Origin: Geodermatophilus sp. DSM 44513
GTDB taxonomy: Bacteria; Actinomycetota; Actinomycetes; Mycobacteriales; Geodermatophilaceae
Length of the DNA: 64,000 nt
NCBI RefSeq assembly: GCF_032460525.1
Contig: NZ_CP135963.1
Coordinates: 1,798,001 to 1,862,000, forward strand
Direction: 5' to 3'
Shown: piece by piece, positions 4,852 through 52,643 of the stretch
How the letters are laid out: each line of letters begins with the position of its first letter
Position numbering within the stretch: the first letter of the stretch is position 1
Translations under genes and position numbers: made by a program
Notes under the pieces: model-generated
Told to the model about the DNA's origin: nothing
The model's database searches: none
Seen by the model: the letters and a program-made list of their open reading frames with translations, nothing else

Positions 4852-5927
4852 GATCCATCCTCGTCGCGGCCGCGTTCGGCCTGGTGATCTCCATCCTGGC
4901 CACGCCGGTCGCGGTCCACCTGTTCCGCCGCAAGGGCTTCGGCCAGGAGATCCGGGACGACGGCCCGGAGAGCCACCTGTCCAAGAAGGGCACGCCCACC
5001 ATGGGCGGCACCGTGATCGTCGGGGCCACGGTCGGCGGCTACCTCATCGCGCACCTGTTCCTGCTCGACCAGCCCGGCCGCGGCCCGTCGGCCAGCGGGC
5101 TGCTCGTGCTGTTCCTCATAGTGGGCCTGGGCACCGTCGGCTTCCTCGACGACTACCTCAAGATCCGCTTCCGGCGCAGCCTGGGGCTCAACAAGACCTC
5201 CAAGCTGGTCGGCCAGCTGGTGGTCGGTGTGGCCTTCGCCGTGCTGGCGCTCAACTTCCCCGACGAGGGCGGCCTCACCCCGGCGTCCACGGTCGTCTCC
5301 TACGTCCGCGACATCGAGCCGCTGGCCCTCGGGACGGTGGGCTTCGTGGTGCTGGCCTACCTGTTCATCGCCGGGTTCTCCAACGCCGTCAACCTGACCG
5401 ACGGCCTGGACGGGCTGGCCGCCGGCTGCTCGGCGATGGTGTGCGGGGCCTACACCATCATCTCGTTCTGGCAGTTCACCCACGACTGCTCCAGCGAGCC
5501 GATCGTCGGCTGCTACACCGTCCGCGACCCGCTGGACATCACCCTGGTCGCCGCCGCCGGCCTGGGCGCGTGCCTGGGCTTCCTGTGGTGGAACACCAGC
5601 CCGGCGCGGATCTTCATGGGTGACACCGGGTCGCTGGCCCTGGGCGGGCTGCTGGCCGGGATGGCGGTGGTCACCCGCACCGAGCTGCTGCTGGTCGTGC
5701 TCGGCGGGCTGTTCGTCGCGGTCACCCTGTCGGTCGTCATCCAGGTGGCCTTCTTCCGGGCCACCCGCCGCCGGGTGTTCCGGATGGCGCCGCTGCACCA
5801 CCACTTCGAGCTGGCCGGCTGGACGGAGAACACGGTGATCGTCCGCTTCTGGCTGGTGACCGGGATGTCGGTCGCCTTCGGGCTGGGCCTGTTCTACGCC
5901 GACTGGCTCGCCTTCACCGGGCTGTGA
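4848..5927 (+). CDS. mraY: Phospho-MurNAc-pentapeptide translocase MraY
   Basis: Integral membrane enzyme that transfers phospho-MurNAc-pentapeptide to undecaprenyl phosphate and makes lipid I. The 359-residue protein has about ten hydrophobic segments. Diagnostic motifs are DDYLK (101-105), NLTDGLDGLA, the catalytic MGDTGSLALGG loop and the HHHFE motif (317-321). The start overlaps murF by 4 nt and the stop overlaps the ftsW frame as GTGA. In most actinobacteria murD follows here; it does not in this window. Confidence 0.96.
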   Translation: MRSILVAAAFGLVISILATPVAVHLFRRKGFGQEIRDDGPESHLSKKGTPTMGGTVIVGATVGGYLIAHLFLLDQPGRGPSASGLLVLFLIVGLGTVGFLDDYLKIRFRRSLGLNKTSKLVGQLVVGVAFAVLALNFPDEGGLTPASTVVSYVRDIEPLALGTVGFVVLAYLFIAGFSNAVNLTDGLDGLAAGCSAMVCGAYTIISFWQFTHDCSSEPIVGCYTVRDPLDITLVAAAGLGACLGFLWWNTSPARIFMGDTGSLALGGLLAGMAVVTRTELLLVVLGGLFVAVTLSVVIQVAFFRATRRRVFRMAPLHHHFELAGWTENTVIVRFWLVTGMSVAFGLGLFYADWLAFTGL

Positions 5928-7534
5928 GACAGCTGCTGCGACACGCCCAGGCGGTGCGCCGGGAGATCGTCGCCGGCGGAGACGATGGCTGGATGCAGTC
6001 CTCCGGCGCGCCCCCCGCCCCCGGCCGGCGCCGGCCCGTGCCGCCCCGGCAGCCGCCGGCGCGCCGGCTCGCCCTGCCGGCCTGGCTGGACGGGCCGATG
6101 ACCAGCTGCCAGCTGGTCGTCGGGGCGGCCGGCATGCTGCTGGCGATCGGCCTGGTCATGGTCTTCTCCGCCTCGGCGATCGAGGCGGCGCTGGACGACC
6201 AGCCCGCCTGGCGGCCCGGCGTGGACCAGGTGGTGTTCGCCGCCATCGGGCTGGGCGCGGCGCTGGTGGCGGTGCGGCTGCCGGTGGGCTTCCTGCGCCG
6301 GTGGGCGCTGCCCGGCCTGGTCGTGGCCGCGGTGCTGCTGGTCCTGGTGCTCGTGCCGGGCATCGGGCTGGAGCTCAACGGCTCACGGGCCTGGATCGAC
6401 CTGGGGTTCACCACCTTCCAGCCCTCCGAGCTGGCCAAGCTGGTGTTCGCGCTGTGGGGTGCCCACGTCCTGGCGGCGCGCGAGCGGTTCCTCACGGTCC
6501 GGACGCTGCTGGTCCCGCTGCTGCCGGTCTTCGCCGGCCTGTCCTTCCTGCTCTACCGCGAGCCGGACTTCGGCGGCATCGTCAGCCTCGGGCTGGTGCT
6601 GGCCGGCCTGCTGTGGGCCGGTGGCCTCCCGCTGCGGTACTGGGCCGGGTTCGTCGCCGCCGGCGGTGCCGCCCTCTACCTGATGGCGCGGTCGGCCCCG
6701 TACCGCTGGGAGCGGGTGACGTCCTTCCTCGACCCGTTCGCCGACCCGACCAACGCCGGGTTCCAGGCCGTCCGCGGCTTCTACGCGCTGGCCACCGGCG
6801 GGCTGTGGGGCGTGGGCCTGGGCAACAGCGCGATGAAGTGGAACCTGCTGCCCGAGGCGGAGTCGGACTACATCTTCGCGATCATCGGCGAGGAGCTCGG
6901 CTTCCTCGGCTGCCTGGTGGTGGTCGGCCTCTACGCGGTGCTGGCCTGGGCCGGCTTCCGGATCGCCCGCCGCTCGTCCGACCGTTTCGTGCAGCTGGCC
7001 TGCGTGGCGATCACCGTGTGGCTGGTCGGCCAGGCGGCCCTGAACATGGGCTACGTGGTGGGTCTGCTGCCGGTCACCGGCCTCACGCTGCCGCTGGTCT
7101 CCGCCGGCGGCACCTCCCTGGTGCTCACCCTGTTCATCGTGGGCCTGCTGATCCGCTTCGCCCGGTCGGAGCCCGAGGCCGTCGAGCACCTGCGCCGCGC
7201 CGACCGCGGCCGGCTGTCCCGCTGGGTGCTGCCGGTGCCTGAGCGGGCCGTCGACCCGGCGCACCCGCGCCGCGTCCGCCGCCCCGAGCGGCCGGGCCGG
7301 GCCGGGCACCCCGCACCGGACGGCGAGCCGCCGGCCCCGCGCCCGGCCGGCCCGGGCGCGCGCACCGTCGCCCGCGTCGTCCCGGCCCCACCGGGGGAGC
7401 GCGCGCCGCGGGAGCGCCTCCCCGCCCGCGAGCGTCGGACGGCGGACGGCCGCGGCCGGCTGCCCGAGGCCCGGCGCCAGCCCCCGCCGCGGGCCCGCGC
7501 CAGCGCGCCCGAGCAGCCCCGGCGGCCACGGTGA
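5924..7534 (+). CDS. ftsW: Septal glycosyltransferase FtsW with long basic C-terminal tail
   Basis: SEDS-family membrane protein that polymerises lipid II at the septum with FtsI. From the GTGA-overlap start it is 536 residues. The first hydrophobic segment begins near residue 60 and the typical SEDS core with its late conserved LPLVSAGGTS stretch follows. The last ~110 residues are a Pro/Arg-rich, probably disordered cytoplasmic tail. An ATG at 5993 is a reasonable alternative start; it would leave a 65-nt gap after mraY, exactly where murD normally sits. The TGA at 7532-7534 overlaps a GTG that opens an 83-bp duplicated unit. Confidence 0.93.
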   Translation: MRQLLRHAQAVRREIVAGGDDGWMQSSGAPPAPGRRRPVPPRQPPARRLALPAWLDGPMTSCQLVVGAAGMLLAIGLVMVFSASAIEAALDDQPAWRPGVDQVVFAAIGLGAALVAVRLPVGFLRRWALPGLVVAAVLLVLVLVPGIGLELNGSRAWIDLGFTTFQPSELAKLVFALWGAHVLAARERFLTVRTLLVPLLPVFAGLSFLLYREPDFGGIVSLGLVLAGLLWAGGLPLRYWAGFVAAGGAALYLMARSAPYRWERVTSFLDPFADPTNAGFQAVRGFYALATGGLWGVGLGNSAMKWNLLPEAESDYIFAIIGEELGFLGCLVVVGLYAVLAWAGFRIARRSSDRFVQLACVAITVWLVGQAALNMGYVVGLLPVTGLTLPLVSAGGTSLVLTLFIVGLLIRFARSEPEAVEHLRRADRGRLSRWVLPVPERAVDPAHPRRVRRPERPGRAGHPAPDGEPPAPRPAGPGARTVARVVPAPPGERAPRERLPARERRTADGRGRLPEARRQPPPRARASAPEQPRRPR

Positions 7535-7692
7535 GCGGACAGGGGCGTGAGCATCGCAGCGAGCTCTGCGAGCGAGGAGTGGAGCGCCCCGCGGGAGCGA
7601 ACGGGGGAGCACGGTGAGCGGACAGGGGCGTGAGCATCGCAGCGAGCTCTGCGAGCGAGGAGCGGAGCGCCCCGCGGGAGCGAACGGGGGAG
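7527..7692 (+). repeat. Tandem duplication of an 83-bp unit between ftsW and murG
   Basis: Two adjacent 83-bp units (7527-7609 and 7610-7692) differ at one base (GAGTGG versus GAGCGG). A shortened third version, with the unit's first and last parts joined, forms the murG start. Each unit holds nested inverted repeats: GGGGCG with CGCCCC, and TCGCAG with CTGCGA. Each carries GTGAGCGGAC, the same start-codon context as murG. A related unit of the same length lies at 52557-52643. Confidence 0.9.
7531..7617 (+). other. 28-codon coupled mini-ORF 1 inside the duplicated unit
   Basis: The GTG at 7531 overlaps the ftsW stop (GTGA). The frame stays open for 28 codons and its TGA (7615-7617) overlaps the GTG of the next unit. 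The peptide begins VSGQGREH and contains CERGVERP. Whether it is translated is unknown; its likely role is to carry ribosomes from ftsW towards murG. Confidence 0.4.
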
Positions 7693-7700
7693 CACGGTGA
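7614..7700 (+). other. 28-codon coupled mini-ORF 2 inside the duplicated unit
   Basis: Near-identical copy of mini-ORF 1 with one Val to Ala change (CERGAERP). Its GTG overlaps the stop of mini-ORF 1 and its TGA (7698-7700) overlaps the murG start GTG at 7697. The chain of stop/start overlaps from ftsW to murG is therefore unbroken. Confidence 0.4.
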
Positions 7701-50907: not shown

Positions 50908-52560
50908 GTGAGCGACACCGACGTCGTCGTGGTGGGGGCGGGGCTGGCCGGGCTGGTCGCCGCCGCGGAGCTGGCCGACGCCGGCAGGCGGGTGGTGCTG
51001 CTGGACCAGGAGCCCGAGCAGTCCCTCGGCGGACAGGCGTGGTGGTCCTTCGGCGGGCTGTTCCTCGTGGACTCCCCGGAGCAGCGCCGGCTGCGGGTGC
51101 GCGACTCCCTGGAGCTGGCCCGGCAGGACTGGGCCGGCACCGCCACCTTCGACCGGCCGGAGGACCACTGGCCGAAGGCGTGGGCCGAGGCCTACCTGCA
51201 GTTCGCGGCGGGGGAGAAGCGGGCCTGGCTGCGCGAGCAGGGCATCGGGCTGTTCCCGGTGGTCGGCTGGGCCGAGCGCGGCGGCTACACCGCCACCGGC
51301 CACGGCAACTCCGTGCCCCGCTTCCACATCGTCTGGGGCACCGGGCCGGGCATCGTCGCGCCGTTCGCCCGCCGGGTGCGGGCGGCCGCCGAGCGGGGCG
51401 TGCTGCAGCTGCGGTTCCGCCACCGGGTCGACGAGCTGGTGGTCGAGGGCGGCGCGGTGACCGGCGTCCGCGGCACGGTGCTGGAGCCCAGCGACGCCGC
51501 CCGCGGCGAGGCCAGCTCGCGCACCGCTGTCGGGGAGTTCGAGCTGCGCGCGCAGGCCGTCGTCGTCACCTCCGGGGGCATCGGCGGCGACCACGACCTG
51601 GTGCGGCGCAACTGGCCGGCGCGGCTGGGCCCGCCGCCGCGGCGGCTGCTGTCGGGGGTGCCCGCGCACGTCGACGGCCGGATGCTGCAGGTCGCCCAGG
51701 ACACCGGCGCCAGCGTCGTCAACGCCGACCGGATGTGGCACTACACCGAGGGCGTCGCCAACCACTCGCCGGTCTGGGCGCGGCACGGCATCCGGATCCT
51801 GCCCGGGCCCTCGTCGCTGTGGCTCGACGCCACCGGCAAGCGGCTGCCGGTGCCGCTGTTCCCCGGCTTCGACACCCTCGGCACGCTGGCCCACATCGGG
51901 CAGACCGGCCACGAGCACACCTGGTTCGTCGCCACCCACAGGATCGTGGAGAAGGAGTTCGCCCTGTCGGGCTCCGAGCAGAACCCCGACCTCACCGGCC
52001 GGGACCTCAGGCTGCTGCTCGGCCGGGTCCGGGCCGGCGTCGCCGCCCCCGTCCAGCGGTTCCTGGACGACGGCGAGGACTTCGTCGTCGCCCGCACCCT
52101 GCCCGAGCTGGTCGACGGCATGAACCGGGTCACCGGCGGCACCCCCCAACTGCACCTGGGCGACGTCGAGCGCGAGGTGGTGGCCCGCGACCGCGAGGTG
52201 GCGCACCCGTTCACCAAGGACCTGCAGGTCACCGCCATCCGCGGCGCCCGCGGCTACCTGGGCGACAAGCTGATCCGGGTCGCGCCGCCGCACCGGCTGC
52301 TCGACCCGGCCGCCGGCCCACTGGTCGCCGTCCGGCTGAACCTGATCACCCGCAAGACCCTCGGCGGGCTGGAGACCGACCTGTCGGGGCGGGTGCTGCG
52401 ACCCGGTGGCGAGGTCTTCCCCGGGCTCTACGCCGCCGGCGAGGTCGCCGGCTTCGGCGGTGGCGGGATGCACGGCTACCGGTCGCTGGAGGGCACCTTC
52501 CTCGGCGGGTGCCTGTTCTCCGGCCGGGTCGCCGGCCGCGCGCTGGCGGCCGCGCTGTGA
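50908..52560 (+). CDS. FAD-binding dehydrogenase (fumarate reductase/ketosteroid dehydrogenase-like)
   Basis: A 550-residue flavoprotein of the FAD_binding_2 family. The N-terminal VVVVGAGLAGLVAAAELADAG is the dinucleotide loop; TSGGIGGDHD and the C-terminal FPGLYAAGEVAGFGGGGMHG complete the FAD site. The substrate is unknown; related proteins are annotated simply as FAD-binding dehydrogenases. The GTG at 50908 follows a TANNNT hexamer by 7 nt. The TGA overlaps a GTG that opens a 28-codon mini-ORF leading to the next gene. Confidence 0.88.
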   Translation: MSDTDVVVVGAGLAGLVAAAELADAGRRVVLLDQEPEQSLGGQAWWSFGGLFLVDSPEQRRLRVRDSLELARQDWAGTATFDRPEDHWPKAWAEAYLQFAAGEKRAWLREQGIGLFPVVGWAERGGYTATGHGNSVPRFHIVWGTGPGIVAPFARRVRAAAERGVLQLRFRHRVDELVVEGGAVTGVRGTVLEPSDAARGEASSRTAVGEFELRAQAVVVTSGGIGGDHDLVRRNWPARLGPPPRRLLSGVPAHVDGRMLQVAQDTGASVVNADRMWHYTEGVANHSPVWARHGIRILPGPSSLWLDATGKRLPVPLFPGFDTLGTLAHIGQTGHEHTWFVATHRIVEKEFALSGSEQNPDLTGRDLRLLLGRVRAGVAAPVQRFLDDGEDFVVARTLPELVDGMNRVTGGTPQLHLGDVEREVVARDREVAHPFTKDLQVTAIRGARGYLGDKLIRVAPPHRLLDPAAGPLVAVRLNLITRKTLGGLETDLSGRVLRPGGEVFPGLYAAGEVAGFGGGGMHGYRSLEGTFLGGCLFSGRVAGRALAAAL

Positions 52561-52643
52561 GGACGACGCGCGAGGGAGCACCGCAGGGAGCGCCGGCGAC
52601 CGAGGCGCGGATCGAGCGCGGAGTCGAACGGACGGCACTGTGA
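52557..52643 (+). other. 28-codon coupled mini-ORF between the flavoprotein and membrane protein genes
   Basis: The GTG at 52557 overlaps the flavoprotein stop and, after 28 codons, the TGA overlaps the GTG of the next gene. Start-to-start distance is 83 nt, the same as at the ftsW-murG repeat. The peptide contains IERGVERT, close to CERGVERP in the murG units, and the DNA aligns recognisably (GCACCGCAGGGAGC against GCATCGCAGCGAGC, then CGAACGG). Confidence 0.45.

Follow-up and report, generated by a model that had tools for sequence, protein, structure and literature searches.

Here we describe a short structured repeat that sits on stop codons in genomes of the Geodermatophilaceae and that, at junctions between coupled genes, tends to leave the passage from one stop to the next start intact. 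Two 83-bp units of it separate ftsW from murG in the window (the whole 64,000-nucleotide stretch of DNA that was analysed). The unit is probably a small, non-autonomous, MIRU-like repeat, placed on stops and selected at coupled junctions to keep the stop-to-start chain, and its canonical form would consist of some 75 nt and a short repeat of the target. From the sequences we observe its dispersal, its position, a repeat of the junction at its far end, a covarying hairpin and a bias of phase at coupled junctions.

The window contains two in-register copies (7527-7609 and 7610-7692) of 83 bp each, 99 % identical with one mismatch, a likeness far beyond what chance can explain. GTGA occurs at 7531-7534, where it carries the ftsW stop, at 7614-7617, and at 7697-7700, where it carries the murG start; from 7697 a third version matches the unit end at 88 % over 25 nt. 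Each GTG opens 28 codons that close on the TGA of the following GTGA. These measurements reproduce exactly the two units, the single mismatch and the shortened third version of the original prediction, and its description of three GTGA junctions and of each unit as an open 28-codon frame holds on the sequence. Gene names are assigned by eye throughout; the nearest MurG on a named contig, at 94 % identity, comes from Geodermatophilus pulveris. The features are as follows.

5924 to 7534, plus strand: ftsW (named by eye), its TGA stop within the first GTGA junction
7531 to 7613, plus strand: unit 1, 83 bp from GTGA to the next GTGA; mini-ORF 1 runs 7531-7617 including the stop, 28 codons
7547 to 7582, plus strand: conserved core of unit 1, about 35 nt, flanked by paired arms
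7614 to 7696, plus strand: unit 2, 83 bp; mini-ORF 2 runs 7614-7700 including the stop, 28 codons
7697 to 7721, plus strand: shortened third version, now the first murG codons
7697 to 8809, plus strand: murG, starting on the third GTGA (named by eye, relatives compared)
52557 to 52643, plus strand: second family copy within the window, single, GTGA to GTGA, period 83, open 28-codon frame

The original prediction saw in the units a local duplication and proposed a search for them at other junctions. That search finds many dispersed copies, among them the second one in the window, and replaces the local view with that of a dispersed structured repeat lying on stops whether coupled or not; a private tandem duplication at ftsW/murG is ruled out by the copies elsewhere in the same genome. 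Searching that genome with the unit gives 49 matches at E<=10, the top ones clear copies, and a profile built from sequence only (13 copies) gives 36 matches at E<=1, fragments counted. Several tandem arrays in this genome have 83-nt spacing and one holds seven copies. At E<=0.01 the profile matches at least 49 of 61 genomes (this one and its relatives). Within the family at least 35 of 37 genomes are matched, with 0 to 73 copies per genome among the matches listed, candidates in this family-wide search having been scored under stricter filters. Weaker members occur in other families of the order, where several inspected loci also lie at start-stop junctions, and in a class-wide sample 6 of 296 genomes, the genome of the window included, are matched at E<=1e-5.

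Some individual genomes and loci deserve mention. One single-contig genome of the same genus (G023) has zero profile matches among the matches listed, its congeners having up to 73. What looks by eye like the end of fusA carries copies both in the genome of the window (L023) and in a genome of another family (L162, G052), with a long gene-end repeat. Also in the genome of the window, a copy lies between ispD-like and ispF-like genes (L008), where the upstream frame reads through and the copy forms its C-terminus.

Among the papers listed by searches of the open-licence literature, none describes such an element in Geodermatophilaceae. As far as that literature was searched, the family in Geodermatophilaceae, its placement on TGA stops, the covarying hairpin with its host-matched arm and the contrast between coupled and uncoupled sites are new. 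The site analyses below draw on 100 regions that are the best-scoring among the matches listed, not a random sample, with contig-edge matches, those of G026, G005 and G020 and one of G019 omitted. Flank similarity reduces 118 copy clusters, the genome of the window included, to 91 sites, rows L137, L207 and L209 having been dropped or moved before the cluster analysis.

Relatives retain the ftsW/murG junction in its empty form. In 60 of 68 readable relatives the two genes meet in a direct NTGA overlap in the murG frame, which supports the proposal that the units entered an ancestral overlap; the other 8 differ. This classification comes from a script anchored on an ftsW motif, by which 12 of 80 relatives were unreadable, and two of the eight (L044 and L076) look like misreads of the script. 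L070, another of the eight, has on inspection by eye a whole unit bounded by GTGA and ATGA, its frame open over 28 codons, and L032 and L037 show apparent remnants of the unit at ftsW/murG. Copy number also varies: at one site one genome has four units and another has one (L171, L251), both in chain phase.

At 78 of the 91 sites the TGA stop of a same-strand gene lies no more than 20 nt from the element start, with the element in sense orientation. Single copies followed by a same-strand coding frame mostly open on GTGA or ATGA (41 of 53), and those with no such frame downstream mostly on CTGA (17 of 20). By a rough comparison, the ends of 50 high-scoring ORFs in the window show a similar supply of GTGA and CTGA (GTGA 21, CTGA 18, TTGA 3, ATGA 2, other stops 6), so the element seems to take stops as available and overlaps are not specially favoured. 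The bases around the upstream stop recur at its other end. In a 15-nt comparison the best match averages 10.32 within a site and 8.79 across sites (p 8.6e-11, 78 sites), and the signal is present both in the GTGA/ATGA class (p 3.5e-4, 41 sites) and in the CTGA class (p 5.1e-5, 36 sites). An element arriving in sense orientation on a stop would thereby have a few bases around the TGA duplicated at its far end. Since the NTGA overlap lies within the duplicated bases, an insertion would destroy neither the stop of the first gene nor the start of the second.

The element is also matched to its host gene. Seven-base arms flank the conserved core, and the stop of the upstream gene, together with its last codons, is paired by an outer arm. 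Over 76 unselected sites the arms of one site form 5.95 standard pairs of 7, compared with 4.04 for arms taken across sites (p 1.3e-25); arm positions 5 to 7 alternate between C-G, G-C and G-U, and position 4 is paired in only about half. For the outer arm the best 7-mer is an exact complement at 22 of 36 CTGA sites and at 6 of 39 GTGA/ATGA sites; among cross-site pairs the corresponding shares are 9.5 % and 0.9 %. The full hairpin was aligned for 39 chosen sites out of the 62 that have a 36-nt core; most of the 23 excluded have a shifted left arm, and for a few no strict criterion governed the exclusion. In these rows 91.2 % of cells are paired, and sliding the alignment by 1-3 columns leaves at most 45.4 %. 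Changes on both sides affect 13 of 22 pairs in the same chosen rows (9.8 in shuffles) and amount to 117 cells (41.8 in shuffles). RNAalifold returns a similar but smaller structure of 19 pairs. Folded singly, the window copy does no better than its shuffles (z +0.92), and of three terminal copies two fold beyond shuffles (z -2.74 and -2.85) and one does not (z -0.80). A search of 8 loci against Rfam 15 at E up to 1 gave no curated RNA family at the element, and identity with a known RNA family was rejected for that reason. The sole Rfam match is a tRNA-Sec beside selD, away from the element (L006, 2679-2770, plus strand).

Two genes bear on which side of the match has changed. At selD in the genome of the window the gene end GTCCGCTGA, which is paired by the element of that gene, is shared exactly by 12 of 15 searched relatives, all 15 lacking the element by the pattern used. 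Because the paired gene end is present in those 12 element-free relatives, the comparison suggests that the element arm, and not the gene, is the side that changed. At sucD the element occurs in 1 of 15 relatives, and the target is not simply pre-existing, because most of the other 14, which are element-free, end one codon later. A separate observation concerns the selD end of L366 (G011), where three consecutive copies of the last bases with the stop occur and no element lies between them, like the footprint of a lost element or of slippage.

Guiding, templated copying, later quasi-palindrome correction and compensatory change are all possible sources of a matched arm. Template switching in quasi-palindromes can correct one arm to match the other. 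We regard it as quite possible, while leaning against it, that the arm covariation is mutational in this way, template switching having fitted the element arm to the gene end after insertion with neither a guide nor structural selection. The selD comparison favours such a course, given that the element arm appears to be the side that changed. The inner stem, both arms of which lie within the element, also covaries between copies, a point that tells against it and fits structural selection as well.

The preferred reading, selection for an unbroken stop-to-start chain, concerns what the element does to translation at coupled junctions. A ribosome stopping at the first TGA would begin again on the GTG or ATG that overlaps it, translate 28 codons and terminate at the next start, a relay made possible because the canonical unit of 83 nt is 2 modulo 3. 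At coupled junctions selection would then remove any copy that maintains neither this chain nor an in-frame fusion, and tandem growth would add whole links.

The phases of single copies are consistent with this. Among 67 copies before a same-strand coding frame, 38 continue the chain, 18 are in frame and 11 fall in neither class; with one member per site the figures are 33, 11 and 7 (51 sites). Where a start lies close downstream, 30 sites are in chain phase, 7 in frame and 4 in neither (41 sites), giving P 2.1e-7 for chain against 1/3 and P 4.8e-4 for chain and in-frame together against 2/3. These per-site counts take the first-listed member and stops within -60..+20 nt of the element, and retain L023 and L026, both judged uncoupled by eye. 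The in-frame class can read through with the old start kept. According to the original prediction, relatives with the unit in all three phases would speak against coupling: across sites the third phase does occur, at 4 of the 41 close junctions, whereas at the murG site itself L070, the sole relative with a complete unit, is in phase.

Uncoupled sites are laxer. Of 37 coupled sites 28 are open and 7 fused, and among 21 uncoupled single-unit sites 11 have a frame that runs open until a stop close to the distal end. Counting open and fused sites together, coupled junctions reach 35 of 37, compared with the 11 of 21 that are open among the uncoupled (Fisher 2.8e-4); for open frames alone the contrast is weak (28 of 37 against 11 of 21, Fisher p 0.064), the fused class being definable at coupled sites only. 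Several of these labels were assigned by eye, L131 having been moved to the coupled sites and L023, L026, L195, one L179 copy, L245 and L172 to the uncoupled ones. The remaining two coupled sites, outside both classes (the second L191 copy and L268), have a short frame that closes on an internal GTGA lying in the frame of the downstream gene, and this would also hand ribosomes on. The proposed preservation of the chain stands as a strong bias at close junctions, but the open frame is partly the unit's own property, because 11 of 21 uncoupled single-unit sites keep it too.

Tandem arrays number 31 in total. Four of them (L190, L197, L246, L257) were excluded for their odd spacing, and orthologous arrays (for example L018/L193 and L180/L214) were kept unmerged. 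A period of 83 only is found in all 6 of the unit-spaced arrays that open on GTGA or ATGA before a coupled gene, and in 10 of the 21 remaining ones, the others being spaced by 82, 84 or a mixture (0.027 for the contrast, calculated by hand). Exceptions exist: 5 of 11 coupled-labelled arrays are not 83-only, beside the third-phase sites among single copies.

Such numbers leave room for an intrinsic phase, that is, a fixed length of about 83 nt and a ribosome-binding run of its own, with the downstream start independent and the mini-ORFs functionless by-products. We consider this unlikely but far from negligible. The canonical length by itself gives the phase, which counts against selection, and 83 is the commonest period at uncoupled stops too, where about half of the single copies retain the open frame as noted above. 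Ahead of the closing start, 24 of 32 coupled copies and 11 of 28 others carry an SD-like run of at least 4 nt (p 0.008); the run being commoner in coupled copies, the downstream gene may do without the relay. On the other side stand the excess of chain phase over the 41 close sites and the behaviour of variant lengths: intact coupled mini-ORFs range from 25 to 33 codons and keep the phase, whereas the period of uncoupled arrays strays to 82, 84 and 88. Part of the phase bias comes from the canonical length of 83 and part looks like selection. The central idea of the original prediction, that ribosomes can still pass from gene to gene by termination and reinitiation, is well supported as a pattern in sequence and has a published mycobacterial precedent; as a mechanism it is a proposal, and so is the idea that unit number may tune the level of MurG.

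The element might instead be kept for its hairpin, as a 3'-end stabiliser or terminator, or for an internal promoter, with coupling incidental. The strong covariation of the arms and the copies at uncoupled gene ends agree with that, and a MIRU in the senX3-regX3 region can, according to the accessible part of PMC4213456, drive senX3-independent expression of regX3. We nevertheless doubt it: sites differ between genomes and copy number runs from 0 to 73 per genome within the family among the matches listed, which gives no sign of a role conserved at any particular gene, and the fold of the window copy scores no better than folds of its shuffled versions.

It is improbable, although the selD comparison fits its direction with the paired end present in 12 of 15 element-free relatives, that the 3' arm acts as a guide by pairing with the last codons and the TGA of its target, so that new copies would arrive already complementary to their host and tandem growth would add relay links. 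Mobilisation in trans of a REP-type element by a Y1 (RAYT-like) transposase would suit a short dispersed hairpin with a conserved foot, but is very improbable and largely refuted by a search for Y1_Tnp (PF01797), positive in 5 of 14 control genomes and in 0 of 37 genomes of the family, those with 73 and 66 copies included; the enzyme may have been lost in a common ancestor.

REP elements are small, palindromic, non-coding dispersed repeats, and the element resembles them in these respects. It differs in lying on stops in sense orientation, in genomes of a family where the Y1 transposase search was negative. Rickettsia palindromic elements are palindromic repeats tolerated within translated sequence, inside genes. 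Compared by description only, they are matched by the in-frame class (7 of 41 sites), while our element lies at stop codons.

MIRUs are a standard marker for the typing of tuberculosis, and the accessible literature seems to have settled little about the way they spread or about whether their small ORFs are of consequence. With an abundant element of the MIRU kind in desert actinobacteria, the spread and the role of the small ORF become testable, since genomes with 0 to 73 matches listed, empty and filled versions of one site and coupled as against uncoupled controls are all at hand. They form a natural series of insertions for gauging the strength of selection on translational coupling, and the hairpin arm that matches the end of its host gene is an added point of interest.

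In the accessible text of PMC12548453, citing Supply et al. 1997, MIRUs appear to be mobile, to insert at start codons and to bring an ORF coupled at -4 nt, and the coupling proposal is credited to that work (its reference 77). Unit lengths of 77 and 53 bp are given in the portions available of PMC2453075 and PMC4213456, and both are likewise 2 modulo 3. As to range, the text available of PMC4213456 confines MIRUs to M. leprae and the tuberculosis complex, whereas that of PMC12548453 has them in many mycobacteria. In genus g19 we find both kinds: a MIRU core pattern occurs in 56 of 118 genomes, with none for the reversed control, and the profile of our element matches 27 of 118 at E<=0.001, the two hitting different loci with different cores. 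Of 20 MIRU-pattern loci among the matches listed, one was off the script pattern and three had no flanking start-stop tetramer; the 16 analysed comprise 13 whose chain reaches the closing start, 2 in-frame loci and 1 of neither kind. A MIRU-pattern unit of 52 nt (1 modulo 3) in L306 has an internal ATGA, by which the chain runs in two steps of 12 and 6 codons and still reaches the closing start. Five further loci of the genus (L315, L318, L323, L324 and L325), seemingly one junction by eye, are of MIRU type in some genomes and of our type in others.

The element thus shares with MIRUs the form of a short, dispersed, intergenic and often tandem repeat, and an inner small ORF with 4-nt overlaps to the stop before it and the start after it, as in the window copy and at most close coupled sites. 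It has a core and a length of its own, a covarying hairpin with a host-matched arm, and a range of Geodermatophilaceae and some other families. Many of its copies occupy CTGA stops that no coupled gene follows, a placement absent from the MIRU description in the accessible part of PMC12548453. MIRUs are the closest known kind, and our element would work alike.
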